NCBI GenBank assembly: GCA_001025035.1
Contig: LCZK01000007.1
Coordinates: forward strand, 124,001-188,000
Length of the DNA: 64,000 nucleotides
Origin: Actinobacteria bacterium IMCC26207
GTDB lineage: Bacteria > Actinomycetota > Acidimicrobiia > Acidimicrobiales > Microtrichaceae
Reading direction: 5' to 3'
In this document: piece by piece, positions 3,150-34,867 of the stretch
Layout of the letters: each line of letters opens with the position of its first letter
Position numbering within the stretch: the stretch's first letter is position 1
Notes under the pieces: generated by a model
What the model was told of the DNA's origin: nothing
What the model saw: the letters and a program-made list of their open reading frames with translations, nothing else
Database searches by the model: none
Made by a program: the position numbers and the translations under genes

Positions 3150-3169
3150 AACTGACGCAAGCGTCAGTT
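3150..3169. promoter_or_regulatory. Operator 1 of the island regulon
   Basis: The sequence AACTGACGCAAGCGTCAGTT is a palindrome with 9-bp arms and a 2-bp centre, the longest of the eight sites. It lies between the divergent SDR operon (minus) and the MaoC-like operon (plus). The 16-bp core matches the seven other island operators, MTGACRC-NN-RYGTCAG. The form suits a dimeric TetR-type repressor, but no regulator gene is in the window. Confidence 0.75.
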
Positions 3170-3201
3170 CTCTGACGTTTCACACTGACTGAGGGGGATT
3201 C

Positions 3202-3651
3202 TTGGCGCTCACCGAATTGATCGGCACTGATCTGGGCACTCAGACCATCCGCATAGAACAAGGCCCTGTTCGGGCTTTTGCTTCGGCGGTCAAAGATGAC
3301 CCGGATCGATACACCGGTGACCAGGCAAGCACTCCACCAACTTGGCCATTTGTCATGAGCTACTGGGGCTCATCGGGTACTGGCGGCGCGGCCGGGTTGC
3401 CCATGAACAAGCTTCGCGGCCCGGGCCGCATCATTCTTCACGGCGAGCAAGAGTTTGAGTACAGCCGCTCACCACTCGTTGGAGAGACGCTCACTGGCAC
3501 TGGCAGCATCTCGGATGTATACGAACGCGAAACAACTTCCGCAGTCATGGAGTTCTACGTGCGGGAGATGAACTGGCGCGATGAGTCTGGCAACGCCGTG
3601 GTTACCGAACGGTTCACGCTGATCGTTCGCCGCAAGAAAGAGTCAGGCTGA
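3202..3651 (+). CDS. MaoC/hotdog-type hydratase
   Basis: This 149-residue single hotdog domain resembles the N-terminal dehydratase-like domain of the MaoC/FAS1-DH family (IRIEQGPVRAFASAVKD, then PPTWPF). Such proteins hydrate enoyl-CoA, often as heterodimers. Their canonical Asp/His hydratase motif is not obvious here, so it may be the partner subunit or act on an unusual substrate. The start is a TTG at 3202 with GAGGGGG eight bases upstream; no ATG fits. It is first in an operon with an acyl-CoA dehydrogenase (3-bp gap) and an AMP ligase, with the palindrome at 3150-3169 upstream. Confidence 0.7.
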   Translation: MALTELIGTDLGTQTIRIEQGPVRAFASAVKDDPDRYTGDQASTPPTWPFVMSYWGSSGTGGAAGLPMNKLRGPGRIILHGEQEFEYSRSPLVGETLTGTGSISDVYERETTSAVMEFYVREMNWRDESGNAVVTERFTLIVRRKKESG

Positions 3652-3654
3652 AAA

Positions 3655-4878
3655 GTGTCCGCCGCAGTAGGCCACGATCCCTACGAAGAGACCGAGGACC
3701 AACTCGCTCTGCGCGAGTTGGCGCGAGGGATAGCTAGCCGGGTGGTTGAGCCCAGCGCCGCCCAGGGCGATCAAACTGGGGAACCACCTCGCGTAGCCGC
3801 TCAGGCAATGGCTCAGGCGGATCTCTTGCGCGTCACCATCGGTGAAGAGTGGGGAGGGTTTGGCTACGGAGACGTTGAGGCCTCGATCGTGCTCGAAGAG
3901 ATTGCTCGAGCGGATGTCTCAACTGCAATCTGGTGCCAGCTGACCTTCAACGGTCCGCCACGCGGTATTGAGCATCTCGGTCCAGCCGCAATGAAGCAGC
4001 GTTGGCTCCCTGCAGTAGCAGCCGGAGAGGCACTGCTTTCGATCGGTATTACCGAACCCGACGCTGGGTCGGCAGTGCAAGATATGCGCACCTCTCTCAC
4101 CGACACGGGTAACGGGACTTACCTTCTGAACGGCTACAAGAATTACTCAACTCTGGGACATGCAGCTCAGGGAATATTGGTTTGGTGTCGTTGGCCGGGT
4201 GGTTCGGGAGCTCGCGGTATTGGTGCCGTCGTCATTGAGATGGACCGGCCGGGGGTGACACTCACGGGGGTGCATCACTCTATGGGAGTACACGCAGCGA
4301 CCGAAGCCGAGATCGCGTTTGAAGATGTGCAGATCCGAGCCGATGACGTGCTGATTGCTGGCCAACCTGAAGACACCTCCGCATTCAAACTTCTCCTGTC
4401 GCACCTGAACCATGAACGCTGCGGAAATGCATCCATGTGTATCGGCGCGGCTCAAGGTTCCTTGGAATACGCCACCCGTTACCTCAATGAGCGCGTCATT
4501 GGTGGACGAGCCTTAGCTGATCTTCAGGGCCTGCAGTGGAAGCTCGCCGAGATGGCCCTTGAGCTTGACGGGGCGCGACTCCTACTGCGGCGCGCTGTTC
4601 ACTTAGCCGGACCTAGCGGCACGCCACCGGCCATGGAAACAGCCATGGCAAAGACAGCAGCAAACAGGGCTGCAAAACACGTGTGCGATGAGGCCATTCA
4701 ACTGCTCGGAGGCTACGGGTACAGTCAGGAATATCCCGTGGAACGCGTCTACCGAGACATCCGCGGGTTATGCATTGGAGCTGGCACCATCGAGGCACAG
4801 CTGAATTACATCGGCAGCAACGTCGCACGTGGTCGAACCTCAAATTCACCCGGCTGGATTCCCCAGAACTTCACATGA
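3655..4878 (+). CDS. Acyl-CoA dehydrogenase with relocated catalytic Glu
   Basis: The 407-residue flavoprotein has the full acyl-CoA dehydrogenase layout: N-terminal helical domain, beta domain with TEPDAGSA, and C-terminal helices with QLLGGYGYSQEYPVER. At the position of the MCAD catalytic base (YEGT) it reads GAGT, so that Glu is Ala at residue 376. A Glu is present in NHER at residue 254, where isovaleryl-CoA and long-chain enzymes carry their base. Activity on a branched or bulky acyl-CoA is therefore plausible. The start is GTG, 3 bp after the MaoC-like gene; the stop overlaps the next start as ATGA. Confidence 0.85.
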   Translation: MSAAVGHDPYEETEDQLALRELARGIASRVVEPSAAQGDQTGEPPRVAAQAMAQADLLRVTIGEEWGGFGYGDVEASIVLEEIARADVSTAIWCQLTFNGPPRGIEHLGPAAMKQRWLPAVAAGEALLSIGITEPDAGSAVQDMRTSLTDTGNGTYLLNGYKNYSTLGHAAQGILVWCRWPGGSGARGIGAVVIEMDRPGVTLTGVHHSMGVHAATEAEIAFEDVQIRADDVLIAGQPEDTSAFKLLLSHLNHERCGNASMCIGAAQGSLEYATRYLNERVIGGRALADLQGLQWKLAEMALELDGARLLLRRAVHLAGPSGTPPAMETAMAKTAANRAAKHVCDEAIQLLGGYGYSQEYPVERVYRDIRGLCIGAGTIEAQLNYIGSNVARGRTSNSPGWIPQNFT

Positions 4879-6281
4879 ATCATGTAGGACTGGCCCCAAC
4901 CTGGCAGCAGGTAGACCACTCCCCTTCTACGGCCTCGCTAACGAACCTCGCTCCGAGTGACACTCGGATTCAGCGGCTAGCCGGCGGGCTCAACAAACTC
5001 GGGGTGCGTCCCGGAGACCTCGTCTCCTGGCAGCTCGCCAATAGTGAGGAAGCCGCCCTGCTGCTCTGGGCCTGCTGGCAACTCGGTGCGACTGCAGTAC
5101 CGCTACATCATCGAGCAACAGCTCAAGAGGTCGACGTCATGCTGGCAGCAATTCCAGATGCGTTCAGCATCACAGCCAGCGAAACACAGCACATCATTCG
5201 CACCGAATCAGCGTTACTCGAAGTGGTTCCACCTCCGTATGGTGTTGCTCTGATTCTGCATACTTCTGGGTCTTCGGGTGCCCCGAAAGCAGTCCTCCAT
5301 ACCCATGACTCACTCTGCTTCAAAGCGCAAAGCATGGCTCAAGTTCACGCTCTTGGCGCAGAGGATGTTGTGCTCATGCCTGCACCGATGGCTCACATCT
5401 CGGGAATCTTGAATGGCGTGACACTGCCAGCAGCAGCCGGGATGCGCAGCGTGCTGATGAATCATTGGGACCCAGAGCGAGCGCTCGACCTCATCGAGGC
5501 GGAGCGAGTCACCTTCATGGTCGGACCACCTACGTTCTTCCTGAGTATGGTCCAAACCTCCGGTTTCACCTCCAAGAAGGTACGAACGCTCCGCCTGATC
5601 TCGGCAGGTGGCACGGGTGTGAGTCCGGAGTTTTGCAAAGAGATCAGCCAGCGTTTTTCAGCAGTGGTCAAGCGAAGCTACGGCTCGACCGAAGCCCCAA
5701 CTGTCACCACCTCTTGGGCGGGTGACTCCGGCGAGATGATGCATGCCACTGATGGTCGAGCAACACCAGGCACACAGCTCCGGCTGAGCGAGACGGGCGA
5801 ACTTCAGCTGCGAGGACATGGACTCTTTGCGGGCTATACCGACGCAACGCTCACTGCTCAGAGCATCACCACTGATGACTGGTTCTGCACGGGAGACTTG
5901 GCGCAAATCACCGAGGGCAGGATCACCATTACGGGGCGTGTAGCTTCAGTGATTATTCGGGGCGGCGAGAACATCAGTCCCTCGCAGGTCGAGTCAGTGC
6001 TCACAGCTCATCCTGACGTGTTGCAGTCGGTGGTAATCGGCCTCGAGGATGCTCGACTCGGCCAGCGAGTCGCAGCGGCTGTCACCACGCGCAATGGCCT
6101 GCTGTTCAATCTCGAAGATTGCCAGCGGTGGTGCGCCGAGCAGGGACTCAGCCGCTACAAGTGGCCCGAGGCGATCTGCCAACTCGACAACATTCCCCTG
6201 CTGGAGTCTGGCAAGGCAGACCTTCTTGCTGTGGGCGCTCTCTTTGAGCATGGGTCCGGCGGCCGACCAACCACTGCTTAG
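4875..6281 (+). CDS. AMP-forming acyl-CoA ligase
   Basis: The 468-residue member of the ANL superfamily activates a carboxylic acid to its CoA thioester. Visible motifs are the P-loop HTSGSSGAPKAV near residue 128, YGSTEA, the TGDLA/GRV hinge, RGGENISPSQVE, and a C-terminal lysine in ESGKADL. The start is the ATG overlapping the previous stop (ATGA). The gene is third in the MaoC/dehydrogenase/ligase unit. Its end overlaps the tail of the convergent CoA-transferase gene by 4 bp. The natural acid cannot be read from sequence. Confidence 0.85.
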   Translation: MNHVGLAPTWQQVDHSPSTASLTNLAPSDTRIQRLAGGLNKLGVRPGDLVSWQLANSEEAALLLWACWQLGATAVPLHHRATAQEVDVMLAAIPDAFSITASETQHIIRTESALLEVVPPPYGVALILHTSGSSGAPKAVLHTHDSLCFKAQSMAQVHALGAEDVVLMPAPMAHISGILNGVTLPAAAGMRSVLMNHWDPERALDLIEAERVTFMVGPPTFFLSMVQTSGFTSKKVRTLRLISAGGTGVSPEFCKEISQRFSAVVKRSYGSTEAPTVTTSWAGDSGEMMHATDGRATPGTQLRLSETGELQLRGHGLFAGYTDATLTAQSITTDDWFCTGDLAQITEGRITITGRVASVIIRGGENISPSQVESVLTAHPDVLQSVVIGLEDARLGQRVAAAVTTRNGLLFNLEDCQRWCAEQGLSRYKWPEAICQLDNIPLLESGKADLLAVGALFEHGSGGRPTTA

Positions 6282-8008
6282 GGACGCAGAAAGAAACCCT
6301 GCGGGTCCCACCCACGAAGGCGTTGCAGTTCCTCTGGCGTTGGAGGTTCTAGTTCAACGCAGTCATCAGCAACGACAAGGTCCCAGCCGAGCCGCTCACG
6401 AATCGTTGCCTCCATACCGGAAACGACTGCAATTAACTCGAAGAGCGTCTGGCTACTTTCTGCTTCCCCCTCCGCAGTTTCTCGCCTACGGAACACTCCT
6501 AATTCGGTCGCAATTCTGCTCACGCGATCCCCCGGCGAAGTTATATACGGCACCTGACTCACGGTTCGCTTTGCGCTCAGCGTGGTCACGATTACTACCT
6601 CGTCAGCAGTGGTGGCAACATCATTTCCTCCCCCGGATCCGACCAAAAATACCTTGCCCGGGATCACGGTGGAATTGATGTTCCCAGCAGCGTCAACCTG
6701 AGCTGCCCCCAGACATGCGATGCAACTCGTTGCGGGGCCAGGGATCATTGCCCCCAGCACCCAATCGCTGTCCGCCAGCATCGTCGCAGACGGAAACGCC
6801 CGGTGATTGAACACGAATGGGTCAGCCAGAGTTGGCTCATATCCCAACAGACCGAGCTCCGCAGTGAGCACAGTTGGGGCGCCGCGCTCACGGGCCTGTT
6901 CTGCGCCCAACCAGGTGGCAAGGTTGGCAACTCCCGCACCGGCGAGCACCGTATCTGCCTGCGTAGCCACGAGTCGATCAGCGAGTGTGCGCGCACCAAA
7001 GATCGCGGCGCGTTCCCAGTCATTTGCCGGGGCCTCAAGATTGGGGGGCATCGAAGCCGCCTCGGCCTTCCAGGAGTCACTCTGCGCTCGCTGGCGCAAA
7101 CTCCTGATGCGTTCAGACCCAAGCAGATCAAGGTAGGCAGAATGGTCGGTGGGTTCGAGCACCCATTTGGTAATCCACTCATCAAACTCGGCGTCATCGA
7201 GCCGGCTGACCTCTCGAGCCTGCGACCAAAACTGCAGGTCTTCTCCATAGGGTTCGGCCGGGGTAAAGGTTCCGTACAGTCCGCCGGGGTGAGCACCCAG
7301 CGGGCACTCGGTCACCGCCAGAACCTGATGGGCCGGGATGCGAACCAGATGCGACCAGGGTCGGATGTCGTCCACAATTCTCTCTACCGTTGCAACCACG
7401 CCGCGCTTGGCAGCAAGGGCACCCCAGACGCCTTCCAGCATCGGAGGGTGAAAGGCAATGTTCCCGGCTGCGTCAGCAATCGCGCCATGCACTACTGCAA
7501 TATCTGGCGCATAAGCCTGCAGCATCCCGACCTTCCCAAAGGGTGTTTCTACGGTGGCGTATCCCTGGTTTGTCTCCATCGAGGATCCTGCAAGTGAATG
7601 CGTTGTGATGGCTGGAAGGCCTCGGGCTGCGGCCTCCATTCGTTGCGCAAAACTCAGAAACGACCAGTGCTCAACTTGCACCTCACCAGAGAGATAGGCA
7701 CTTGCAAAGCGTGGGTTCGGACTGAAGTTGGGAAACACATCGCCCGAGTAGCCCGTAACTACTTTGTTCACTAATCCACCTCGAAAGAACAAGGTTCCCA
7801 AGCTCGACAATGACAACATGACCAGCGTCCACTCGGGGTCCTGGCCCCACCATTTTCGAATCAATGCACGCGCAGCGGCAGACCAACGGGTATGCGAACA
7901 CTGCAGGTGAACCTCGTCACCGGCCTGAACAAAGCCAATGGCCTCGTCCAAGCTGCAGACCTTGTTTGGCGTATTCAACTGCGACTCATCAAACCGTGAC
8001 TCATCCAT
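6278..8008 (-). CDS. Fused class I CoA-transferase-like protein (IpdAB-like layout)
   Basis: At 576 residues it joins two CoA-transferase family I halves: an alpha-like half (residues 15-285) and a beta-like half (about 335-576). The second half carries TAELGLLGYEP, where the Glu aligns with the class I catalytic glutamate. In steroid degraders such proteins (IpdA/IpdB) act as CoA-ester ring hydrolases rather than transferases and are usually two subunits. The role here is uncertain between true CoA transfer and hydrolytic C-C cleavage. No Shine-Dalgarno precedes the ATG, which starts seven bases from the operator at 8015-8030, so the transcript may be leaderless. Monocistronic. Confidence 0.75.
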   Translation of the reverse strand: MDESRFDESQLNTPNKVCSLDEAIGFVQAGDEVHLQCSHTRWSAAARALIRKWWGQDPEWTLVMLSLSSLGTLFFRGGLVNKVVTGYSGDVFPNFSPNPRFASAYLSGEVQVEHWSFLSFAQRMEAAARGLPAITTHSLAGSSMETNQGYATVETPFGKVGMLQAYAPDIAVVHGAIADAAGNIAFHPPMLEGVWGALAAKRGVVATVERIVDDIRPWSHLVRIPAHQVLAVTECPLGAHPGGLYGTFTPAEPYGEDLQFWSQAREVSRLDDAEFDEWITKWVLEPTDHSAYLDLLGSERIRSLRQRAQSDSWKAEAASMPPNLEAPANDWERAAIFGARTLADRLVATQADTVLAGAGVANLATWLGAEQARERGAPTVLTAELGLLGYEPTLADPFVFNHRAFPSATMLADSDWVLGAMIPGPATSCIACLGAAQVDAAGNINSTVIPGKVFLVGSGGGNDVATTADEVVIVTTLSAKRTVSQVPYITSPGDRVSRIATELGVFRRRETAEGEAESSQTLFELIAVVSGMEATIRERLGWDLVVADDCVELEPPTPEELQRLRGWDPQGFFLRP

Positions 8009-8014
8009 ATCTAA

Positions 8015-8030
8015 CTGACACTAACGTCAG
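8015..8030. promoter_or_regulatory. Operator 2, in a 27-bp divergent gap
   Basis: CTGACACTAACGTCAG fits the island consensus with one imperfect inner pair. Only 27 bp separate the two divergent start codons (8008 minus, 8036 plus), and the operator fills 16 of them. Binding here would block both genes at or next to their start codons. Confidence 0.75.
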
Positions 8031-8035
8031 CATGC

Positions 8036-9553
8036 ATGAATGGCTACGAAGGCAACCGAACTCTGCGTGGGGGCCACATCGCCATAAGGAGCGAAGAACG
8101 CAGCTTGAGCTATGCCCAACTCCACGATCGAGCCTCTCGACTGGCTCAGGTACTCGCCGCCGAAGGTCTCAGCGAGGGCGACCGGCTCGCAATCATGATG
8201 CCAAACCTGGTGGAGTTTGTGGAGTGCCTTGCGAGCAGCGCCAAACTGGGCTGCGCAGCACTCTCGGTAAACTTTCACCTTGCTCCCGCCGAATTGGCCT
8301 ACGTGCTGAATGACTCACAGGCCAGCATGCTGATTGCGCATGTCGATCTGAAAGACGTGGTAGCCGCAGCCGAGCCGGCCTGCCCGGTAATCTTCGTTGG
8401 CGATAGGACAGCCGATGGCTATGAAGCAAGATTGGCCGCTGTAAGCGCCGAGCCAGTTGAGTATCTCTGGCCCGCCCCTTGGCCTGTGATCTACACCTCG
8501 GGTACTACCGGCCGGCCCAAGGGAGTGGTTCATGGCGCGTTAGCGAGTGCCGAGGTGCTGGCCTATACACAAAACTCGTTGACGCAGATGTGGGGCTACA
8601 CCGACCAAGATGTTCACCTTGTTGCCGGGCCCTTGTACCACGGCGGCCCGCAGGGCTACGCAAACCTGACGCTGTTTGCCGGCGGCACCGTGGTGCTCAT
8701 GGGCAAATGGGATGCGCTGGATTTTTGTCGCCTCGTTGAGCAGTATCAAGTGACCACGACCTTCCTCACTCCCGCACACTTCATTCGACTGCTGGAGTTG
8801 CCGCCTCAAGACTTAGCTGAGTTTGACCTGACGAGTTTGCGTCACGTGTTACACGCCGGCGCACCCTGCCCGGTATCAGTCAAACTGCGCATGATTGACG
8901 CTCTACCCCAAGCAGAAATCTGGGAGTTCTACGGAATGAGCGAGGGCGGAGCAACCAGAGTCTCACCGGAACAGTTCAAGGAGCGCCCCGGCACGGTCGG
9001 GCCACCTTGGCCGGGAGTGGAACTACAGATTCTTGACCCAGAAACAAAGGAAGTGCTGCCAGCCGGGCAGACAGGTTTGGTCTATGTGAAACCCTCATTT
9101 GGGCGCTTTCACTATCACGAGGATGAAGCCAAAACCCACGAGGCTTGGATTGCAGACTCGTTCACTGTTGGCGACATCGGGCACTTGGATTCCGATGGCT
9201 GGCTCTACCTTACGGATCGTCACGTAGACCTTGTCATCAAGGGAGGTGTGAACATCTACCCGCGGCAAATCGAAGAGGTTCTGCATCAGCACCCCCAAGT
9301 GGTTGATTGCGCAGTGTTTGGAATTCCCGACGAACGCGATGGCGAACACCTGCACGCAGTTGTCGAGCTTCGGCCGGGCCAAAGCCAAGCCACACCGCAA
9401 GAGTTACAAGAGTTTTGCGCGTCTCACCTTGACCGCTGGTCATGTCCCGACCGCTTCGAAATTATTGATCAGCTTCCAAGAGACCCGAATGGCAAGGTGC
9501 TCAAGCGAGTGCTTCGTCAACAGGCCTGGTCTGAGGCTGGCAGGAATATCTGA
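8036..9553 (+). CDS. AMP-forming acyl-CoA ligase
   Basis: The 505-residue ANL ligase has intact catalytic signatures: YTSGTTGRPKGVVH near residue 152, YGMSEGG, the GDIGHLD/DR hinge, KGGVNIYPRQIEE, and the C-terminal lysine in DPNGKVLKR. It should make an acyl-CoA from ATP, CoA and a carboxylate. Alignment of the N-terminus with the family leaves little room for a later start, so the ATG at 8036 is kept although it has no Shine-Dalgarno and begins five bases after the operator. It heads a unit with a DUF35 protein (TGATG overlap) and a degenerate thiolase. Confidence 0.87.
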   Translation: MNGYEGNRTLRGGHIAIRSEERSLSYAQLHDRASRLAQVLAAEGLSEGDRLAIMMPNLVEFVECLASSAKLGCAALSVNFHLAPAELAYVLNDSQASMLIAHVDLKDVVAAAEPACPVIFVGDRTADGYEARLAAVSAEPVEYLWPAPWPVIYTSGTTGRPKGVVHGALASAEVLAYTQNSLTQMWGYTDQDVHLVAGPLYHGGPQGYANLTLFAGGTVVLMGKWDALDFCRLVEQYQVTTTFLTPAHFIRLLELPPQDLAEFDLTSLRHVLHAGAPCPVSVKLRMIDALPQAEIWEFYGMSEGGATRVSPEQFKERPGTVGPPWPGVELQILDPETKEVLPAGQTGLVYVKPSFGRFHYHEDEAKTHEAWIADSFTVGDIGHLDSDGWLYLTDRHVDLVIKGGVNIYPRQIEEVLHQHPQVVDCAVFGIPDERDGEHLHAVVELRPGQSQATPQELQEFCASHLDRWSCPDRFEIIDQLPRDPNGKVLKRVLRQQAWSEAGRNI

Positions 9554-10020
9554 TGGCGAGCGCAGAGCCGCAAACGGATTCGATGATCAGCAGGAACGGC
9601 GATGGCCAAGCAGTTTTACTCGGCGGATTCTCGGAGCAGAGCCAACACAGCCACTTTCCGCGAGCATTGGTGTGTCCCTATACGGGTGCTAACGACGTTG
9701 TGGATCACGAGCTTCCGTCCACAGGGGTGCTGTGGGCCTGCACCGTCGTCAACTCTGCACCGCCGGGATACTTCGGCAAAGTCCCCTTCGGATTCGGTGT
9801 TGTACAACTCGATGACGGTCTACGAATCGTGACTCGAATTGCTGCAGACGACCCCGCAAGTCTGCAGATTGGTCAACCCATGGGGTTAATCATCGAGGAC
9901 CTTCCCGCTGGCGCTGACCAAGATGCCGGCACCATGCAGATCTGGGCCTTCGCCCCTGCATCGGACGACACTGCATCGGACGACACTGCATCCGACGACA
10001 CTGCATCAGGAGCTAGGTAA
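9553..10020 (+). CDS. Stand-alone DUF35 OB-fold protein without zinc ribbon
   Basis: The 155-residue protein matches the OB-fold half of DUF35 (LWACTVVNSAPPGYFGKVPFG, then DGLRIVTRI). It keeps only the CPYTG remnant of the zinc ribbon. DUF35 proteins dock on thiolases and help pass CoA intermediates, and the next gene is a thiolase, so the two probably form a complex. The start overlaps the ligase stop (TGATG). The C-terminus is three copies of a pentapeptide, SDDTA, encoded by 15-bp repeats, and looks like a recent expansion. Confidence 0.7.
   Translation: MASAEPQTDSMISRNGDGQAVLLGGFSEQSQHSHFPRALVCPYTGANDVVDHELPSTGVLWACTVVNSAPPGYFGKVPFGFGVVQLDDGLRIVTRIAADDPASLQIGQPMGLIIEDLPAGADQDAGTMQIWAFAPASDDTASDDTASDDTASGAR
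9956..10009 (+). repeat. 15-bp tandem repeat in the DUF35 gene
   Basis: Three copies of CTGCATCGGACGACA, the third with one change, and a partial fourth encode the C-terminal SDDTA repeats. Near identity of the copies at DNA level points to recent slippage or duplication. Confidence 0.9.
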
Positions 10021-10067
10021 CTCTATGAAGGCAGTAACTCTATGAAGGCAGTGACTACATGAAGGCA
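10017..10067 (+). repeat. 17-nt tandem triplication of a start-codon junction
   Basis: The unit GTAACTCTATGAAGGCA occurs three times (10017, 10034, 10051; the last with two changes). Each carries an ATG. The first two open six-codon mini-ORFs, MKAVTL (10025-10045) and MKAVTT (10042-10062). The stop of each overlaps the next ATG as ATGA, and the third ATG (10059) starts the thiolase MKAVAL. Ribosomes could pass down this chain by termination-reinitiation. Confidence 0.9.
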
Positions 10068-11224: not shown

Positions 11225-11240
11225 CTGACGCCAGCGTCAG
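11225..11240. promoter_or_regulatory. Operator 3
   Basis: CTGACGCCAGCGTCAG has perfect 7-bp arms around CA. It lies 13 bp before the GTG start of the HMG-CoA-synthase-like/DUF35 gene and after the end of the preceding thiolase, so the following three-gene unit has its own promoter. Confidence 0.75.
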
Positions 11241-15858: not shown

Positions 15859-15906
15859 GCTGTCTCCTGGATCATGCTGTCTCCTGGATCATGCTGTCTC
15901 CTGAAT
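15855..15906 (-). repeat. 17-nt tandem triplication at the ferredoxin/amidohydrolase junction
   Basis: Read on the minus strand, CAGGAGACAGCATGATC is present three times, each with an SD-like AGGAG and an ATG. The ferredoxin ends in IQETA-stop. Two mini-ORFs, MIQETA (15892-15872 and 15875-15855), follow, each overlapping the next start as ATGA, before the true start at 15858. The layout equals that at 10017-10067 although the sequences are unrelated. Confidence 0.9.
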
Positions 15907-16095: not shown

Positions 16096-16099
16096 TGGG

Positions 16100-17329: not shown

Positions 17330-17362
17330 GTGCTGTGCCCCCTTGGCGTAAACCTGCACTGT

Positions 17363-17378
17363 ATGACACGCGTGTCAG
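17363..17378. promoter_or_regulatory. Operator 4
   Basis: ATGACACGCGTGTCAG contains the perfect 14-bp palindrome TGACACGCGTGTCA. It lies between the P450 start (17329, minus) and the end of the preceding dehydrogenase gene (17380). It therefore marks a second promoter on the same strand rather than a divergent pair. Confidence 0.75.
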
Positions 17379-21070: not shown

Positions 21071-21086
21071 CTGACACACACGTCAG
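21071..21086. promoter_or_regulatory. Operator 5
   Basis: CTGACACACACGTCAG lies between the divergent FGGY kinase (start 21032) and PaaK-like ligase (start 21139). It matches the island consensus with one imperfect inner pair. Confidence 0.75.
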
Positions 21087-23739: not shown

Positions 23740-23755
23740 CTGACACACGCGTCAG
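23740..23755. promoter_or_regulatory. Operator 6
   Basis: CTGACACACGCGTCAG sits between the divergent thiolase (23701) and SDR (23815) genes and matches the island consensus. Confidence 0.75.
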
Positions 23756-23814
23756 CAGAGATGGCTACGATTCCTAGGTTGCCGGGGGGCAGCCGAATCA
23801 GGAGCGACGCGCAT

Positions 23815-24708: not shown

Positions 24709-24715
24709 CCCAGCC

Positions 24716-26212: not shown

Positions 26213-26239
26213 CCACAGCAAACCTGACCGGCAAACCAG
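26204..26239 (+). repeat. 15-bp duplication across a stop codon
   Basis: CAAACCTGACC recurs after 15 bp, with a partial third copy (CAAACCAGAC) near 26232. The first copy holds the TGA stop of the ligase gene. The repeats fill the gap before the next gene. Confidence 0.75.
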
Positions 26240-26261
26240 ACGAAGATTGCAGGATATTTCC

Positions 26262-27854: not shown

Positions 27855-27896
27855 TTCAGTACAACAGCCCTTCGCAACAGGCCCGAGCAACAGCAG

Positions 27897-28340
27897 CTAG
27901 GCAGATGGTGCCTGTAGAAGCTGTGGTTCTTCACCTGTGAAGACAATCTCTCGAATGGCAAATCTCCAGACACCGTCGGCTTCCAGGATGAGTTCATCGT
28001 GATACCGGCCGGTGGTCGTAATGACCCCTTTACGGTTCACGAACAGAAAATCACTCCAGCACTGAGCAGAACTCGCATCCTCCGAGACCAAAATGAGCGG
28101 ATTGATCACCACGTGCTTTCCACGCAGTTCCGGTGGTTGGCCAGCCTCAATGAACGCCTGCACTCGGTCCCTTCCGGAGTGGCTAGTGCCCATCACGTGT
28201 AGCTGTGTGCCAAGAGTGAAAAGCAACCCCCACTCCTCGAAGCGGCCATCGTCACAGAACATGCAGTAGCGAGCGAGAGTCTGCCGGATCGATTCTTCAG
28301 CCGTTGTCGATCTCACCACAGATGACTCGTGTTCGTTCAT
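27897..28340 (-). CDS. SnoaL/NTF2-like protein
   Basis: The 147-residue protein has the NTF2-like alpha+beta barrel pattern: an N-terminal helix (IRQTLARYCMFCDDGRFEEW), then RDRVQAFIE, KHVVINPLIL, and C-terminal strands GRYHDELIL and WRFAIREIVF. Members include ketosteroid isomerases, polyketide cyclases and ring-hydroxylase beta subunits; catalytic residues differ and I cannot choose. The start at 28340 was preferred because the longer reading would include operator 7. Monocistronic, divergent from the LplA-like gene. Confidence 0.7.
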   Translation of the reverse strand: MNEHESSVVRSTTAEESIRQTLARYCMFCDDGRFEEWGLLFTLGTQLHVMGTSHSGRDRVQAFIEAGQPPELRGKHVVINPLILVSEDASSAQCWSDFLFVNRKGVITTTGRYHDELILEADGVWRFAIREIVFTGEEPQLLQAPSA

Positions 28341-28368
28341 ACAAGAACCGTAGCTGAACCCAAGAAAC

Positions 28369-28384
28369 ATGACACGAGTGTCAG
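28369..28384. promoter_or_regulatory. Operator 7
   Basis: ATGACACGAGTGTCAG lies between the NTF2-like gene (28340, minus) and the LplA-like gene (28424, plus). The 6-bp arms TGACAC/GTGTCA are perfect. Confidence 0.75.
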
Positions 28385-28423
28385 CTAACATCACTCAAGT
28401 CGTCGCGGACCAGGGGGATCAAG

Positions 28424-29581
28424 ATGGAGCGCGAGCAGTGGAGATGGCTTGACCTGGGCCGGCAAGGGCCTTATGAAAACGCAGCAACGATGCCCGTGCT
28501 CGTGCGCTCGGTCCTTGAACAGGGCCGGCCCATTCTGCAAACCAGCATCTGGGGCGAAACCCACCTGAACGTGGGTTGGTTCGATGACGTGGACTCAACC
28601 TTGGACCTGCAAAGGTGCGAAGAACTCGATATCGCGGTCATGCGCCGCTCCTTCTACGGCGGAGGAACTGCTTACTATCAGGCTGAGTGCTCCATGATGT
28701 GGGGGTTTCTGCTGCCCAAAGACATCCAGATTCTTGGTGTTAGTACCAACGATCTTGACGCGTTGCTTGCAAAGTTTCAGGTGCTGTTCTCTGACGCTCT
28801 GCGCCGAATTGGACTGAGCGAGGTTCAGTTTGAAGGGTCCTCTGATCTGCGATGGAACGGTCGCAAGCTCGGTGCCCTCACTGCCCAAGACGTTGTTGCT
28901 TGCGTCTCGATCGGTGGATTCTTAAACCTCGCTCCTCCAGACCTGACCACCTACTTGCAGGTAGTGCGAATCCCTGAAGACAAGTTCAAAGACAAGATCG
29001 TCAAGGACATGACCGAGTACGTCTGCACGGCCGAACAAGTTGTTGGTCACCCAGTCAGCTACGAGCACCTACGCGATGCAATCATCGAATCGATGGCTGC
29101 AGCCGGAGTCGACCTAGAACTCAGCGCCCTCTCCCCCGGCGAAGCCAAAGGGGTAGCAAAGGCTTCGGGCAGGGTCGGTTCACCTGAGTCCATTCGCCGT
29201 ATCTCTTCGGATCAGTTTCTCTTGGATGCCCCCTCGGGTTCTTGCTGTGGTTTCGGCAACTTCAAGGGCCGCAAGCTCTGTCGTGCCGGAGTCGCCCTTG
29301 CCCCCGATGGGCGAGTTCTCGCAGCCATGATGGCTGGCGATATGCACGTGTCTCCACCTGATGTGATGGACCGTGTGGCTGCTGCGCTCCTAGGTGCCGA
29401 CAGCAGCAACAGCGACGACCTACGCCAACGGATCAGCACCGTGTTTGAAGCAGAAGATGTGCATCAGGCCGACCAACTCATGGGCGTTACCACCGAAGAC
29501 CTGCTGGCCGCCGTACTAGTAGCTGTGCAAGCAGCAGCCTCTATCCCAACTGACGCCACGAAGGACGAGAACCCAACATGA
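28424..29581 (+). CDS. Lipoate-protein-ligase-A-like protein
   Basis: The 385-residue protein resembles LplA. AVMRRSFYGGGTAYY (72-86) matches the RRxSGGGxVYHD lipoyl-AMP loop, NGRKLGA carries the expected catalytic lysine (Lys148), and the C-terminal third has the GFGNFKGRKL and AMMAGDMHV blocks of the accessory domain. LplA attaches lipoate to E2 and H proteins, but none is encoded nearby. A catabolic regulon is an odd place for housekeeping lipoylation, so it may act on another carboxylate. The start has GGGGG upstream; the stop overlaps the alcohol dehydrogenase start. Confidence 0.75.
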   Translation: MEREQWRWLDLGRQGPYENAATMPVLVRSVLEQGRPILQTSIWGETHLNVGWFDDVDSTLDLQRCEELDIAVMRRSFYGGGTAYYQAECSMMWGFLLPKDIQILGVSTNDLDALLAKFQVLFSDALRRIGLSEVQFEGSSDLRWNGRKLGALTAQDVVACVSIGGFLNLAPPDLTTYLQVVRIPEDKFKDKIVKDMTEYVCTAEQVVGHPVSYEHLRDAIIESMAAAGVDLELSALSPGEAKGVAKASGRVGSPESIRRISSDQFLLDAPSGSCCGFGNFKGRKLCRAGVALAPDGRVLAAMMAGDMHVSPPDVMDRVAAALLGADSSNSDDLRQRISTVFEAEDVHQADQLMGVTTEDLLAAVLVAVQAAASIPTDATKDENPT

Positions 29582-30807
29582 AAGCACTTCAATTCCTTGC
29601 CGATCCAGAGCCCTGGCCCTATCCCGTCGGCCCTGAGGACCCACTCCTCCTGCAGCACCTTGCGACCACCCCGATGGCCCTGCTCGATCTCCCTGATCCG
29701 ACCTTGATCGATGACGACTGGCTCGTGTTACGCACGCGACTGACTGGAATCTGCGGATCTGACTCCAAACAAGTTCTGATGGATTTCGAAGATGCAGGCG
29801 ACAACATGATGACGGCCTTCATCACCTTTCCTCAGGTTCTCGGCCACGAGGTCGTAGCCACTATCGAACAAATGGGTCCGGCAGTGGAAGGGTTTGAACC
29901 TGGGCAACGAGTGGTGCTGTATCCAAATATTGGGTGCCGGGCACGTGGGCTCAGCCCGCTGTGCCCCGCCTGCGAGCGCGGCGACTACTCAATCTGCCAA
30001 CGCTTTTGGGAAGGTCGACTCTCGACTGGAATCCACACAGGGAACGCTGTTGAGGCAACTGGCGGGTTCGCGGAATTCCTCCCCGCTCACACCTCGATGT
30101 GCCTGCCAATTCCCGATCAGATTTCCGATGAGCTCGCCGTACTCGCGGACCCGTGGTCAGTTTCGTTTCATGCCATCACACGCAATCCGCCAGCACCCGG
30201 CAGCCGAGTGTTGGTCTACGGCTCGGGTGCCCTTGGCAGCACTGCTGCTGCCATCCTGACCCAGCTCTATGACTGCTCGGTGGCGGTGGTTGCCAAATGG
30301 GATGCTCAGCGAGACCTAGCAAGTAGTCGTGGTGCAACGGTGTTTCACTCCGACCCTACCGAGGCACTTATTGAGCAACTTGCCGAGTGGTCCGGCGGAA
30401 TTCTCCGACACCCTTGGGAAGGCCTGCCGGTTTGTTTCCCGGGAGCAATCGATGTGGTCTACGACACCGTTGGCTCACCGACAACAGTAGAGGTGGCACT
30501 TCGGGTGCTCGCCGAGCGCGGCAGATTGGTGCAACTCGGGGTGAGCTCACCGGGCCGATTCGAGTGGACCCCTTGGTACTTCAAGGAGCTACAACTCATC
30601 GGTTCTAACGCGTTTGGAGTTGAAACCTTCGAGGGTCAGACAAAGCACGCGTATGAACACTTCTTTGATCTGATCCTCGCTGGCAGGCTCGACTTGTCTG
30701 GGCTGCTGACCCATCAGTTTCGACTAGAAGAGTGGCGAGAAGCGTTCACTGCCATTGTTCATCAGGGCGAAACCGGAGCGATCAAAGTGGCATTCGACTA
30801 CCGCTAG
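29578..30807 (+). CDS. Zinc-dependent alcohol dehydrogenase (MDR family)
   Basis: The 409-residue medium-chain dehydrogenase has the catalytic zinc ligands in GICGSD and GHEVV and a structural-zinc lobe with clustered Cys (LCPACERGDYSIC). The Rossmann motif is YGSGALGSTAA, followed by a substrate domain. It should oxidise an alcohol with NAD(P). A 50-residue insertion around the structural zinc makes it longer than typical 350-residue enzymes. The ATG overlaps the stop of the LplA-like gene, so the two are coupled and probably act on the same or linked substrates. Confidence 0.85.
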   Translation: MKALQFLADPEPWPYPVGPEDPLLLQHLATTPMALLDLPDPTLIDDDWLVLRTRLTGICGSDSKQVLMDFEDAGDNMMTAFITFPQVLGHEVVATIEQMGPAVEGFEPGQRVVLYPNIGCRARGLSPLCPACERGDYSICQRFWEGRLSTGIHTGNAVEATGGFAEFLPAHTSMCLPIPDQISDELAVLADPWSVSFHAITRNPPAPGSRVLVYGSGALGSTAAAILTQLYDCSVAVVAKWDAQRDLASSRGATVFHSDPTEALIEQLAEWSGGILRHPWEGLPVCFPGAIDVVYDTVGSPTTVEVALRVLAERGRLVQLGVSSPGRFEWTPWYFKELQLIGSNAFGVETFEGQTKHAYEHFFDLILAGRLDLSGLLTHQFRLEEWREAFTAIVHQGETGAIKVAFDYR

Positions 30808-30828
30808 ATCACAGCCAAAGAGTGCCGC

Positions 30829-32835
30829 TCAGTCACAGAGGTCAGGTGCAGAGTGGTCAGGTGCAGAGTGGCCAGGTGCAGAGTGGTCAGGTGCAGAGTT
30901 GCCAGGTGCAGAGTTGCCAGGTGCACAGTGGCCGGGTGGTGAGGGTGGCACATCCAGAGCAGGGTTGCGATCAAAGAATCCGTACGGCATCAACATGAAA
31001 CCGGTGTACTCGACTGGCATGACTGGCCAGTCCTCGGGTCGAGGAATGTGAGTGATACCGAACGTGTACCAGAGCACGATGTCGGTATCCACAATCTCTC
31101 GGTCGGCGGCGGTCCATTCCGGCAGCCCCGCCCCACCCTCATGCTGATTTGGGAACTCGCCCGCAGCGCGCAGTTCCTCAGAGTCAAACGGAGTCACCCA
31201 GAGATTGTGCTGAGCGAATCCGGCTCTTCTGGCAACCGAAGACTCCGGCCGAGCCATCAAGGTTGGGGTCGACATCGTGGGAACCAACTTGTATCCGACC
31301 GGCCGGTTGAGGCCGTTCAGCACACTCGGGTTCGTGACTCGCCAAGTACGGCTCGAGGCTGAGTCGGTCTGCCATTTCGCACCAGACTCACGCTCGAGCA
31401 ACTGCGCTCGAGCAGCGAAGCCATTCCCCCACGGGTTATCGGGGCCGGCCGGCATGGTCTCGACATGGACTTCCTCAACTCGGTTCTCCTCTCCGTCAAC
31501 ATCGAAATCCAACCGAGCGCAGAACAGATGCTGATGCACAGGCGCGACCACACCCGATGCGATCCGTCCGGCGAACGGGTGAGGCTCAGAGTCAGGCAGC
31601 CCCTGACTCGACATAATGCCGGTCAGCTTGGCCTCCATCTGGATATTGCCGTCTAAGTAGAGATACCAGAAGAAGCCGTACTCGTAGTTTCCGACCGTTG
31701 CGATATGGCTAATCACCAAGCGTCGGCTGCGGCGAACCTCGTGTCTACCAGTCAGCAAATCAACGTGCTTCCAGCCAATTCCATAATCCTCTTCGTGCAT
31801 ACAGATCGCATTTGGCACCACCCAGGCGTCGCCTTGTTCGGTAGCCATCGTTGCATCCATGTAGTAGATCTCGCCCAAACAATCACAGCCCAGTGTGAGT
31901 GATTGCGTCATGCGGCCAAGGCCCCATTCGCCGGCATCAAATGCGTTCTTCCAACCCTGCACCGGACCGGGGTCACCGTAAGGAACCACCATCTCAGAGA
32001 TCGAGGCGCGATGCAGGATCTTTCGAACCCGGCCGCTGTCGAAGTAACCGAGGTCATGCAAAACCAGACCTTCATACGGGTCCCACCCAATCCGCAGAGA
32101 CCACTTCTGCCAAGAGACCAAGTTGTCTTCAACCGTGAAGCTCGCACCCTCTGGCTGCGTGATGGAGATTGGCAACAAGTCGGTCCGCAAGGGCCCAACA
32201 TCATCGGGGCCGTAGCGTGCAGGAGTCTGCGGGACCGGGATTGGATCAACTCCGTCAAGCTGAGCGTGATCGATGACTTCGATTACTTCTCCAGTGCCAA
32301 GATCAACATGCACCAGCAGTCCCTCTACGGGACGCGCGTAGCCGTTGTCATCGGCAGTAAGTCGAACAAAGCTGATGCAGCGCGCGATTCGTCGACCTTC
32401 CTCGGCTGCAAACCCAAAGGCACCAGCCGGCCAAGGATCAATCTGCACATGCTCCAAGTCGAAGATCCCGCGACGAGCCATCGCTGCGATGTAATCCGGG
32501 TGTTCCTTGCAGGCCAACATGGCAATGAACGACTCGCCCATCAACAACGCCGGCCGCATGCCCTCAATGAGCTTGCGTTCCAGAACCCGCTCCTCAGAAA
32601 TAGAGATGAGCAGCTCGATCATCGTCAGTTCAGCCCCCGGCAAGACCAGCATCTTGACTGTTCGCAAGACAGGGTCACCTTGGCTCCAAGCGGCCAGCGA
32701 TTCCTTTGAAGGCTCCACCAGAATCACGTGGACTACTGCGGCCCCCTCACCTAGGTCTCCGGCCTGAATAGTTACCTGTTTCGCAATGAGCACCTCTTCG
32801 GCGCTCAGCATGGAAAGCGGATGTGCGGCGCTCAC
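30829..32835 (-). CDS. Copper amine oxidase (TPQ-dependent)
   Basis: The 668-residue enzyme has the TPQ-forming motif VGNYEY with precursor Tyr384, the presumed catalytic Asp300 in AFDAGE, copper ligands His434 and His436 (HQH), and His596 in ITHIPRPEDWP. It should oxidise a primary amine to an aldehyde, ammonia and H2O2. No signal peptide is seen, so it is probably cytoplasmic. The C-terminus (about 636-668) is a proline-rich pentapeptide repeat (SAPDH/SAPGN). The start is GTG overlapping the SDR stop (GTGA). Third gene of the dehydrogenase/SDR/oxidase unit. Confidence 0.9.
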   Translation of the reverse strand: MSAAHPLSMLSAEEVLIAKQVTIQAGDLGEGAAVVHVILVEPSKESLAAWSQGDPVLRTVKMLVLPGAELTMIELLISISEERVLERKLIEGMRPALLMGESFIAMLACKEHPDYIAAMARRGIFDLEHVQIDPWPAGAFGFAAEEGRRIARCISFVRLTADDNGYARPVEGLLVHVDLGTGEVIEVIDHAQLDGVDPIPVPQTPARYGPDDVGPLRTDLLPISITQPEGASFTVEDNLVSWQKWSLRIGWDPYEGLVLHDLGYFDSGRVRKILHRASISEMVVPYGDPGPVQGWKNAFDAGEWGLGRMTQSLTLGCDCLGEIYYMDATMATEQGDAWVVPNAICMHEEDYGIGWKHVDLLTGRHEVRRSRRLVISHIATVGNYEYGFFWYLYLDGNIQMEAKLTGIMSSQGLPDSEPHPFAGRIASGVVAPVHQHLFCARLDFDVDGEENRVEEVHVETMPAGPDNPWGNGFAARAQLLERESGAKWQTDSASSRTWRVTNPSVLNGLNRPVGYKLVPTMSTPTLMARPESSVARRAGFAQHNLWVTPFDSEELRAAGEFPNQHEGGAGLPEWTAADREIVDTDIVLWYTFGITHIPRPEDWPVMPVEYTGFMLMPYGFFDRNPALDVPPSPPGHCAPGNSAPGNSAPDHSAPGHSAPDHSAPDLCD
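30838..30938 (-). repeat. 15-bp tandem repeat in the amine oxidase 3' end
   Basis: About six copies of a 15-bp unit close to CAGAGTGGTCAGGTG (plus-strand reading) encode the C-terminal SAPDH/SAPGN repeats. Copies differ at two positions only. Confidence 0.85.
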
Positions 32836-33662
32836 TTGTTAGCGCCGGGGCCAACGGGCGGTGTCATACCAAGGTCCGAAAGGCGCTGCAGCGTGTACTC
32901 GGCTGCTCCCTGGAGGAACCCTTCCGGGTCACCGGTCTTTACCGGCGGCAAGTCTGTAAACCAGTCAGGCACGAATGCCTCGACCATGTTGGACCCAAGC
33001 AGGTCGATCAACGGTTGAAGGATTGCAGACGCTGGTAGCGCCTCGATATCTGACAACGAAGAGTCGTTATCTGGATGGGCAAAAAGCTCGGTGTCGAGCA
33101 CACCGGGTTGTAACACATGAACGCCAATTGGGGTTCCGGCTATTGAAAGGTCGACGCGTAGGCATTCCGCAAAAGCAGTAATGGCAGCCTTTGAGGATGC
33201 GTAGACAGCCTCGGATGGTGGACTGAGCCGAGCCGCCACGGAACCGACAAACACAATCTGGCCGTTGTTGTTTGCGAGTGAATCCAACAAGGCCAACGTC
33301 AGTCGAATCGGAGACTCAAGATTAATTCGCAACACATCCGAGATCTCATCTGGCCGGTGTTCCCAAGCCCACCTTCGTTTGGGAATACCGGCGTTGTTCA
33401 CCAGCACATCAATTCCACCGAACTCCTGGGTCACCGACTCCGCGAACGAATCAAGCGCGTCCAAATCCGATAGGTCTACCGCCCATGCCCGGCTGTTCGG
33501 CGAGAACGAGGTGATGTCTGCAAGGACTTCTGCTAAGCGCTCCTCGCGTCGGCCACAAATCCCAACGATGGCTCCTCGAGCGGCAAGGCCACGGGCCATC
33601 TCGGCGCCCAGTCCAGCCGAGGAGCCTGTGATTAGAACGCGCTTGCCTACTGGATCAAACAT
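32832..33662 (-). CDS. SDR-family oxidoreductase
   Basis: The 276-residue classical SDR has TGSSAGLGAEM near residue 13, CGRREER at the end of strand 2 (an Arg-rich loop that favours NADP), NNAG, the catalytic Ser in FVGSVA and YASSK. It probably reduces or oxidises a hydroxyl group. Start ATG 33662 with AAGGTGG upstream. It lies 39 bp after the acyl-CoA dehydrogenase stop and overlaps the amine oxidase start. Confidence 0.82.
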   Translation of the reverse strand: MFDPVGKRVLITGSSAGLGAEMARGLAARGAIVGICGRREERLAEVLADITSFSPNSRAWAVDLSDLDALDSFAESVTQEFGGIDVLVNNAGIPKRRWAWEHRPDEISDVLRINLESPIRLTLALLDSLANNNGQIVFVGSVAARLSPPSEAVYASSKAAITAFAECLRVDLSIAGTPIGVHVLQPGVLDTELFAHPDNDSSLSDIEALPASAILQPLIDLLGSNMVEAFVPDWFTDLPPVKTGDPEGFLQGAAEYTLQRLSDLGMTPPVGPGANK

Positions 33663-33701
33663 GTGGGACCACCTTGTTGTAAGGAACCCTGTTGTGATCG
33701 C

Positions 33702-34826
33702 TCATAGGACACCGGCACCAGACTCGACTCGCGCTCGAATAATCTCGGCCACTCTGTCCCGGTGCCAGGCAGCAGATCCAAAGCTCACCCGATCAAGCTG
33801 TACCCGCTTGAGGTACAGATGCACATCACACTCCCAAGTGAAGCCCATCCCACCGTGAACCTGAAGGGCAGATTTCAGCACTCGGTCTGCGGCATCAGAA
33901 CACCAAGACTTGGCTACCGAGGCTGCAAGGGCCGTCTCGGGATCTGCCACTTCGGCACACCATGCCGCCCACCAAGTCGAGGACCTCATGCCTTCTAGGT
34001 CAACCAACATGTCTGCGCAGCGATGCTTTACTGCCTGAAAACTGCCGATTGGTCGCCCGAACTGAACACGCTCCTTGGCATGTTCAACCGTGAGATCAAG
34101 GCAGCGAGAAGCCGCTCCTAGAAGCTCAGCCGAATAGGCAATTGCGCCGCGAGCGATGTAGCGATTGACAAGCTCGGGGCCACCGAGTTCTGTGGCCCAG
34201 GTGCCATCAAGGCTCAGCCGCGCAAGCTCTCGCGTCTGGTCCATCGCAGACTCTGCAGCAGGTCTTGACTGAGCGTCTTGCTCGATCAGAAAGAGTCTCT
34301 CTTGGCCATCACCATCGGCGGCTCGCACCACAACAACATCTGCTGATGAAGCGAAGGGAATTGGTTCGGTCTGGCCGCTCAGAATCCAGCCGGAGGAATC
34401 CTGTTTCGCAGCAAGGCAACCAAACCCAGCAGCAGCAATCATGTCGCCTGACACTAGGCCACCGATCAAAGCGGATCGATGCGTCTCTGTAATACCGCCC
34501 ACCACCATGGATGTCTCAGTGGGTGACCCGCAACTCAGGACATCAAGAACTAGGAGCTGACCGAGGAGGGGTACCGGGGCCAAGTAGACCCCTAGTGCCT
34601 CTACAAGTACGGCTGCCTCAACCCAGCCCAAACCAACCCCACCCAACAGTTCTGACGTCGCAATCCCTGACCATCCCTGTTCCATCAGGCTTGCCCAGAG
34701 TTTGCGATCCCAGCCGCCGCCGTTATCGACCACAGCACGAACCCGGACTGAAGAGGACTGCTCACTTAGGATCTGGTTCGCAGCCTCACGCAGAACTCTC
34801 TGATCATCTGACAACTCGAAGTCCAT
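33702..34826 (-). CDS. Acyl-CoA dehydrogenase, beta-like subunit
   Basis: The 374-residue protein has FELSDDQRVLREAANQ at the start, RVQFGRPIGSFQAVKHRCADML and LQVHGGMGFTWECDVHLYLKR. It has no TEPxAGSD-like flavin loop and no GT-EIQR motif. These gaps are typical of the partner subunit in alpha2-beta2 ChsE-type dehydrogenases. It is closest in pattern to the N-half of the fused enzyme at 17380-19611. The likely partner is the divergent gene at 34893. The start ATG 34826 has only a weak Shine-Dalgarno; a TTG at 34835 is possible. Confidence 0.82.
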   Translation of the reverse strand: MDFELSDDQRVLREAANQILSEQSSSVRVRAVVDNGGGWDRKLWASLMEQGWSGIATSELLGGVGLGWVEAAVLVEALGVYLAPVPLLGQLLVLDVLSCGSPTETSMVVGGITETHRSALIGGLVSGDMIAAAGFGCLAAKQDSSGWILSGQTEPIPFASSADVVVVRAADGDGQERLFLIEQDAQSRPAAESAMDQTRELARLSLDGTWATELGGPELVNRYIARGAIAYSAELLGAASRCLDLTVEHAKERVQFGRPIGSFQAVKHRCADMLVDLEGMRSSTWWAAWCAEVADPETALAASVAKSWCSDAADRVLKSALQVHGGMGFTWECDVHLYLKRVQLDRVSFGSAAWHRDRVAEIIRARVESGAGVL

Positions 34827-34851
34827 TGGGACCAAGCGTAGTGGTCACAAC

Positions 34852-34867
34852 CTGACACGTGCGTCAG
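34852..34867. promoter_or_regulatory. Operator 8
   Basis: CTGACACGTGCGTCAG lies between the two divergent acyl-CoA dehydrogenase genes (34826 minus, 34893 plus). One operator between the putative alpha and beta subunit genes would give matched expression. Confidence 0.75.

Follow-up and report, generated by a model that had tools for sequence, protein, structure and literature searches.

A palindromic operator across a predicted lipid-breakdown island in an acidimicrobial genome, and the TetR-type protein that may bind it

The DNA considered here is a 64-kb window of contig LCZK01000007.1 (C7) of Actinobacteria bacterium IMCC26207, which corresponds to C7:124,001-188,000 and in which positions are counted from the first letter. 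Its left part carries eight palindromes of one pattern among predicted catabolic genes, and this raises the question of which protein reads these sites and how far the set of genes under them extends. As set out below, the window contains the right-hand part of a longer island with 20 such sites, and the protein that probably reads them, here named TetR-A, is encoded within that island to the left of the window.

Operator sites in the window and across the genome

An earlier note on this window had described eight palindromes, all intergenic and six of them between divergent starts, which together serve all 14 transcription units between 1 and 36,943, with no full site thereafter. When the pattern MTGACRCNNRYGTCAG was searched on the plus strand of the window, all eight matched with zero mismatches (Table 1), the first of them starting at 3152 and not at 3150 as had been given. 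With up to two mismatches there are 18 strand matches at 10 places in the window, compared with a mean of 7.4 and a maximum of 16 in 100 dinucleotide shuffles, and the site count is above chance. To the right of 36,943 the scan returned zero exact sites, a single two-mismatch match (37543) and a single one-mismatch match (55197). Gene calls made here also find divergent starts on either side of six sites, with tandem genes flanking the other two (11225 and 17363), and each of the 14 predicted units from 1 to 36,943 is next to a site. Whether all eight sites are intergenic is a matter of start codons, since those at 3152, 21071 and 28369 overlap the gene beginnings if the longest open reading frames (ORFs) are taken and require starts about 25, 32 and 77 residues inside them. 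Because the conserved Pfam domains of these three genes begin 29-36 residues into the long ORF versions, the later start codons are the likelier.

The genome-wide scan that the earlier note had proposed (3.32 Mb in 10 contigs, 92.7% complete) finds the sites confined to one stretch of C7. The form TGACRCNNRYGTCA occurs at 16 places, all within C7:74,280-158,866 and the right-hand eight of them in the window, with 28 strand hits where the reversed pattern gives 5. When MTGACRCNNRYGTCAG is allowed one mismatch, four more places appear in the same stretch (71,785; 80,808; 91,585; 121,679), each with the form CTGACRYNNRYGTCAG. Another three lie elsewhere (C7:179,197, or window position 55197; C9:345,064; C10:419,305). 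The resulting island set comprises 20 sites in about 87 kb of one contig (C7:71,785-158,867), with the consensus WAnCTGACRYNNRYGTCAGnTW, the outer letters of which are weaker in relatives. The form CTGACNNNNNNGTCAG has 21 places, of which all 17 in the island read RY..RY and all four elsewhere do not (reversed control, 9 and 9), and CTGACRYNNRYGTCAG has 17 places in this genome, all in the island, with a reversed control of 0; a uniform model puts the chance of 17 of 17 falling in one 87-kb stretch at about 1e-24, although the pattern itself was taken from this island.

Genes were called with a simple codon-usage script on joined neighbouring stretches, and all gene limits and units given here are predicted. 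The stretch C7:70,643-160,943 has 77 called genes, which form 28 same-strand runs, and a site stands at the 5' end of 26 of these runs. Splitting tandem runs at internal sites gives 35 units, 33 of which adjoin a site, but the count of runs is the fairer figure because the split uses the sites themselves. The runs lacking a site are a second TetR-type gene, TetR-B (C7:82,707-83,303, or L018:12707-13303; minus strand; about 41 kb left of the window), and the three genes that face it (83,315-86,505), which leaves 73 genes. Site-to-start distances (n = 32) fall between -6 and 106 bp in 26 cases and between 144 and 354 bp in six, and the site at 74,280 overlaps the called start of the gene at 74,183. 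The idea of a single regulon in the earlier note is well supported, in that the sites are clustered and are kept with homologous genes across families, whereas its gene set does not, since the island extends 52 kb further left and the set as first drawn covers about two fifths of it (30 of 77 predicted genes).

The sites keep company with the same genes in relatives. In six other genomes 45 distinct sites were compared, and at 36 of them a homolog of an island gene starts within 400 bp and points away from the site; the 40 extracted site regions took in 11/11 sites of G012, 9/9 of G125, 10/17 of G199, 6/6 of G174, 3/3 of G009 and 1/5 of G069. In loci selected by their TetR genes, 96 of 118 sites have such a homolog, compared with 22-35 of 118 for random positions in five draws. 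G125 belongs to another family, and its stretch C2:7,757-52,515 is largely collinear with C7:70,643-107,963 of our genome at 46-79% protein identity, with some genes missing or added; all seven of our sites there have a counterpart in the matching gaps, with two sharing one counterpart and two matched only with one mismatch, and TetR-B in G125 has the same neighbours and, again, no site. In G009, which is of the same family as our genome and lacks TetR-A, a 40-kb stretch contains sites and, in its middle, a tandem double TetR, and many island genes have homologs there, nine with 50% or more. The many recurrences within one stretch might also be read as a dispersed repeat of no regulatory role, but conservation fades beyond about 22 bp, the places coincide with predicted starts, and the matching gaps are occupied in a different family despite the protein divergence just mentioned, so that a repeat of this kind is hardly credible.

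TetR-A as the candidate repressor

A TetR_N domain search gave 33 matches in the genome, of which 31 were over the cut-off and two were inside the island. None lay inside the window, in agreement with the earlier note, which had seen no TetR-type gene there; the nearest on C7 are at 100,895 and 198,244. This absence is an effect of the window edge, because the likely regulator TetR-A (C7:100,835-101,422) sits inside the island, 22.6 kb to the left of the window, and is flanked by sites. The note had suggested looking for a TetR or FadR gene with a site in its own promoter, and TetR-A is such a gene: one site lies 42 bp ahead of its start, and a second follows about 35 bp downstream of the gene, in front of an ABC importer. 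The protein has 195 amino acids (as P0001), and its domain-scan form of 208 amino acids has a single TetR_N stretch that scores 57.5 bits against a cut-off of 24, which places it in the TetR family. Its AlphaFold2 model is nearly all-helical (mean pLDDT 84.7), and among the matches listed its nearest solved folds are an uncharacterised Mesorhizobium TetR first and then FasR, B. subtilis FadR, EthR, SaFadR and others. TetR-A has the palindromic site at its own promoter, kept in orthologs, that is expected of an autoregulated TetR repressor.

The association of TetR-A with the operator extends well beyond this genome. Counting our own, 13 of 13 TetR-A loci examined have a site with at most one mismatch no further than 220 bp away, and in 12 of these the distance is at most 140 bp. 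The 79 named loci surrounding TetR relatives, 1.10 Mb in all, contain 118 copies of the motif, compared with 0 for the reversed motif and 0-4 for each of 23 rearrangements of the half-sites. A search of 61 genomes separates 11 with at least 10 copies of CTGACRYNNRYGTCAG from 50 with five or fewer (reversed controls, 0-2); counts of 10 or more occur in 11 of the 12 genomes with a TetR-A match at E 4e-40 or better and in none of the 49 without, and the twelfth TetR-A genome, G056, is 80% complete and has one site. Over 198 genomes, with a TetR-A-like gene defined by E 1e-25 and at most 16 candidates scored per genome, 60 have at least one CTGACRYNNRYGTCAG and 29 have a TetR-A-like gene. At least one site is present in 27 of these 29 and in 33 of the 169 others (Fisher p about 2e-14, ignoring kinship), and at least four sites in 15 of 29 and 1 of 169 (p about 9e-14, likewise ignoring kinship). 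With 33 TetR_N matches in the genome, another regulator encoded elsewhere might use the sites and TetR-A be merely one of its targets. The number of sites, however, follows TetR-A over the 198 genomes, and TetR-A is the island gene most often beside a site in related loci, by a count that used a looser rule than the 400-bp homolog test and had no random control; only the first of these points is independent, because most related loci were picked by TetR-A. We regard a regulator from elsewhere as quite improbable.

TetR-B is a closer competitor, since the protein at the operator could be TetR-B, or a mixed dimer of the two, instead of TetR-A alone. The two proteins of our genome have very similar recognition helices (SHGTFYLYF and SHGSFYLYF), and all 11 genomes with at least 10 sites in the 61-genome search have a pair of TetR matches, of which one is nearer to TetR-A than the other. 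The sites, however, keep away from TetR-B genes. Among eight TetR-B loci six are siteless, one has a one-mismatch site at 433 bp and the last an exact site at a distance of 1 kb. In a tree of 88 TetR proteins, which took 64 of the 79 named loci and whose bootstrap had not settled, TetR-B falls in a 19-member clade that is supported (98/97); the 300 bp upstream contain a site in 0 of the 18 members assessed, and our own TetR-B is likewise without one, whereas 36 of the 69 proteins outside the clade have an exact upstream site and 20 a single-mismatch site. The 15 loci left out were placed by a quick FastTree run with part of the other rows, which put nine in clade B, with no site, and six outside it, three with and three without. 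In total, 59 of 75 non-B genes and 0 of 28 clade B genes have an upstream site within 300 bp, in a tally of 103 of which at least six rows are second copies of one gene reached by two tools. Two rows on very long branches (L038 and L042), which are probably wrong-strand readings, leave this tally unaffected, because L038 is flanked by exact sites and L042 has none on either side. Moreover, the motif-rich genomes G199, G223, G174, G077 and G152 have a single TetR match at E 1e-25, at which a distant TetR-B could fall below the threshold or outside the 16 candidates. TetR-B is consequently disfavoured as the main binder, and a role for it at the operator, alone or in a mixed dimer, appears unlikely; it may be a partner, a second sensor or the regulator of the unit that faces it. 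Upstream stretches examined by eye for an operator of its own gave nothing clear, with L051, L054 and L057 read on the wrong strand.

Close relatives of TetR-A (88-99%) occur in metagenome bins titled Actinomycetota bacterium or Bifidobacterium breve (MH-09jul19-195, MiH-22jul19-91), and the bins of L059, L061 and L099, also titled Bifidobacterium breve, have TetR genes close to those of Actinomycetota and Acidimicrobiia bins. The Bifidobacterium breve label is very likely wrong, since the titles of most further relatives read Acidimicrobiia, Acidimicrobiales, Microthrixaceae, Actinomycetes or Actinomycetota.

Several observations weigh against TetR-A as the repressor of this regulon. TetR-B and the three-gene unit facing it lie in the island without a site, and 16 of the 75 non-B TetR genes have no upstream site. 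G064 and G166 have a TetR-A-like gene and zero exact sites, and G107 has six exact sites without a TetR-A-like match at E 1e-25 among the at most 16 candidates scored, and also has no tandem TetR at E 1e-60. The genome counts and Fisher p values take no account of shared descent, and the TetR-selected loci are enriched for islands of this type. Once one mismatch is allowed, the reversed control also returns strand hits (15 and 14 genome-wide, compared with 22 and 22), so lone one-mismatch places mean little apart from their position. Finally, the fold matches of TetR-A are moderate, with TM-scores by query of 0.47-0.66 for the matches listed, and the top one is an uncharacterised TetR.

With these points set against the link between site and gene across loci, across genomes and in matching gaps, it is most likely TetR-A that binds the 20 sites and represses both the island and its own gene, a reading to which we give a probability of about 0.82. 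In the mechanism that we propose, a TetR-A dimer bound near the predicted starts, with most sites no more than about 110 bp away, would block RNA polymerase, and one site would switch both genes of a divergent pair. A pathway intermediate would release TetR-A, and the FasR/FadR-type fold matches together with the gene content suggest that this inducer is perhaps an acyl-CoA, as the likeliest candidate. Release would then switch on the CoA ligases, acyl-CoA dehydrogenases, hydratases, MFE-2-type dehydrogenases, thiolases, Ltp2-like aldolases and the branched-chain-type ABC importer.

Gene content and predicted substrate

A Pfam scan that covered 29 of the 30 called island genes in the window (in their longest-ORF forms) and 30 of the 47 genes to the left of it found CoA ligases, an ATP-grasp acyl-CoA synthetase, acyl-CoA dehydrogenases, MaoC-like and enoyl-CoA hydratases, short-chain dehydrogenases/reductases (SDRs), thiolases, SCP2-type thiolases with OB-fold partners and a CoA transferase. 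It also found amidohydrolases, a luciferase-like protein, a P450, a GMC oxidoreductase, hydantoinase A/B, two sulfotransferases, a sulfatase, a copper amine oxidase and parts of a branched-chain-type ABC importer. The units in the window are listed with the sites in Table 1.

Table 1. Operator sites and predicted gene units in the left part of the window (window positions).
Feature	Position	Strand	Context	Basis
Operator site 1, CTGACGCAAGCGTCAG	3152..3167	.	between divergent units	exact pattern match and gene calls
Operator site 2, CTGACACTAACGTCAG	8015..8030	.	between divergent units	exact pattern match and gene calls
Operator site 3, CTGACGCCAGCGTCAG	11225..11240	.	upstream of + unit 11254-14668	exact pattern match and gene calls
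Operator site 4, ATGACACGCGTGTCAG	17363..17378	.	upstream of - unit 14689-17359	exact pattern match and gene calls
Operator site 5, CTGACACACACGTCAG	21071..21086	.	between divergent units	exact pattern match and gene calls
Operator site 6, CTGACACACGCGTCAG	23740..23755	.	between divergent units	exact pattern match and gene calls
Operator site 7, ATGACACGAGTGTCAG	28369..28384	.	between divergent units	exact pattern match and gene calls
Operator site 8, CTGACACGTGCGTCAG	34852..34867	.	between divergent units; last site of the island	exact pattern match and gene calls
Fused OB-fold/SCP2-type thiolase (Ltp2-ChsH2-like), SDR	55..3085	-		Pfam; best PDB match 6ok1; predicted limits
MaoC-like dehydratase, acyl-CoA dehydrogenase, CoA ligase	3202..6281	+		Pfam
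Single-chain type I CoA-transferase-like protein, A and B parts fused	6278..7951	-		Pfam, PDB search
CoA ligase, OB-fold protein, SCP2-type thiolase	8036..11195	+		Pfam
HMG-CoA-synthase-like protein, SCP2-type thiolase, enoyl-CoA hydratase	11254..14668	+		Pfam, NCBIfam
Amidohydrolase, cytochrome P450	14689..17359	-		Pfam, PDB search
Double acyl-CoA dehydrogenase, FGGY-type kinase	17380..21032	-		Pfam, PDB search
PaaK-like CoA ligase	21139..22461	+		Pfam, NCBIfam
Thiolase	22487..23701	-		Pfam, PDB search
MFE-2-type SDR, two CoA ligases	23761..27854	+		Pfam, PDB search
SnoaL-like protein	27897..28394	-		Pfam
Lipoate-ligase-like protein, zinc-type alcohol dehydrogenase	28424..30807	+		Pfam
Copper amine oxidase, SDR, acyl-CoA dehydrogenase	30829..34826	-		Pfam
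Acyl-CoA dehydrogenase (best PDB matches Tcur3483, 4x28), enoyl-CoA hydratase	34893..36943	+		Pfam, PDB search

The acyl-CoA dehydrogenases at 34893 and 17380 have as their best PDB matches Tcur3483 and 4x28, which we take to be steroid side-chain enzymes. The best match of the fused protein at 55-1563 is Ltp2 with ChsH2 (6ok1), and an extract of the literature has the Thermomonospora Ltp2 acting on a C3 steroid side chain (PMC12329534). A purely steroidal substrate is made less likely by the remaining matches: the thiolase at 22487 is closest to general acetyl-CoA acetyltransferases, the MaoC protein to HadB, the SDR at 23761 to a (3R)-hydroxyacyl-CoA dehydrogenase and the P450 to CYP143 and camphor-type P450s, and the NCBIfam steroid models CasG and IpdE2 match far below their cut-offs. 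Nor is a steroid-only substrate borne out by the distribution of KshA. The KshA_C domain is found off the island in our genome (C9:315,509 and C5:198,670), a strong match (E below 1e-20) is present in 13 of the 29 genomes with TetR-A-like genes, and G199, with 17 sites, has no strong KshA_C match. Because steroid-type and general enzyme matches are mixed in this way, we describe the pathway as steroid-like side-chain beta-oxidation, and the island is predicted to encode a breakdown programme for steroid-like lipids. Among the matches listed, literature searches gave no lead on steroid degradation in Acidimicrobiia and no mention of Tcur3483.

Three features of the window and its surroundings are recorded for completeness. 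The minus-strand gene at 55-1563 joins in one chain an OB-fold (ChsH2-like) and an Ltp2-like thiolase domain that are two chains in 6ok1. The CoA-transferase-like protein at 6278-7951 (minus strand) has only distant PDB matches, the best being a protein of the glutaconate CoA-transferase family (8e-11). Directly beside the island end lie two neighbouring lamin tail domain proteins (36989-37717 and 37841-39442).

Relation to known TetR regulators

The island is predicted to form a new regulon of a known kind. Extracts of the published work on KstR and KstR2 of mycobacteria and rhodococci describe TetR repressors that bind a 14-bp palindrome of two half-sites with a 2-nt spacer, and whose operator serves several, often divergent, promoters of steroid catabolism (PMC3068626, PMC8228715), which is similar to the arrangement predicted here. 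The same extracts give KstR2 site-to-start distances of 22-82 bp for five genes and 285 bp for one that is not repressed (PMC3068626, PMC8228715), and the island distances are alike. The operator itself is different, being CTGACRYNNRYGTCAG in the island and, in these extracts, TNNAACGTGTTNNA for KstR (PMC8228715) and AnCAAGnnCTTGnT (PMC3068626) or AAGCAAGNNCTTGCTT (PMC8228715) for KstR2. The earlier note had judged that the motif matches neither regulator, and the published forms bear this out and rule out a KstR or KstR2 operator under another name. In line with this, the match of TetR-A to KstR2 in the PDB is weak (E 1e-4) and involves the DNA-binding part only. The operator also differs from that of BkaR, given in an extract as GTTA(N)T(N4)A(N)TAAC (PMC3920632). 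FasR and the FadR-type proteins are among the nearest solved folds, and by their entry titles FasR and B. subtilis FadR were solved with acyl-CoA, but their sequence identity to TetR-A is 17-21%. The accessible part of a further study presents 11 new mycobacterial motifs as logos without letters (PMC4482099), so one of them could in principle resemble CTGACRYNNRYGTCAG. Four spellings of the motif returned only unrelated subjects, by title, among the matches listed, and no TetR regulon of Acidimicrobiia was among the matches listed, which is a weak test; most subscription papers were outside both searches.

In its DNA-binding part TetR-A resembles Mce3R of M. tuberculosis (E 2e-8), but it is a single-domain protein with a symmetric operator, whereas Mce3R has two TetR modules in one chain and, according to an extract, binds a nonpalindromic sequence (PMC11667970). 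Tandem double TetR proteins of Mce3R-like build (L044, L045, L046, L048, L049, L050; L183-L191) occur in some relatives, most of which lack TetR-A, and a literature search on tandem TetR gave no lead among the matches listed. Tandem genes are present in nine of the 198 genomes, one of which also has a TetR-A-like gene; among the eight without it, seven have at least one site, compared with 26 of 161 genomes with neither gene. G009, which lacks TetR-A and has its tandem TetR amid homologs of window genes and the same sites, supports the speculative view that one operator serves an ancient programme of polycyclic-lipid breakdown in Acidimicrobiia, at which a TetR-A and TetR-B pair, partly as a mixed dimer, and an Mce3R-like tandem chain have been exchanged over evolution. 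Only one of nine tandem TetR genes has an exact site within 1.5 kb, which counts against such an exchange, and we hold it to be doubtful. A clean pairing of the tandem halves with TetR-A and TetR-B was not found, the C-terminal half being about equally like both, and this too counts against the exchange.

With TetR-A as the likely regulator, the operator and about 73 predicted targets named, a testable gene set becomes available for a catabolic route in a group that is, to our knowledge, known mostly from assembled genomes. Because the operator stays with its genes in several families, it may be used to assign scattered pathway genes in other genomes as well. Should separate and tandem TetR proteins indeed have exchanged at one operator, this would bear on how Mce3R came about, and these bacteria would show stages by which an asymmetric repressor of the Mce3R type arose.

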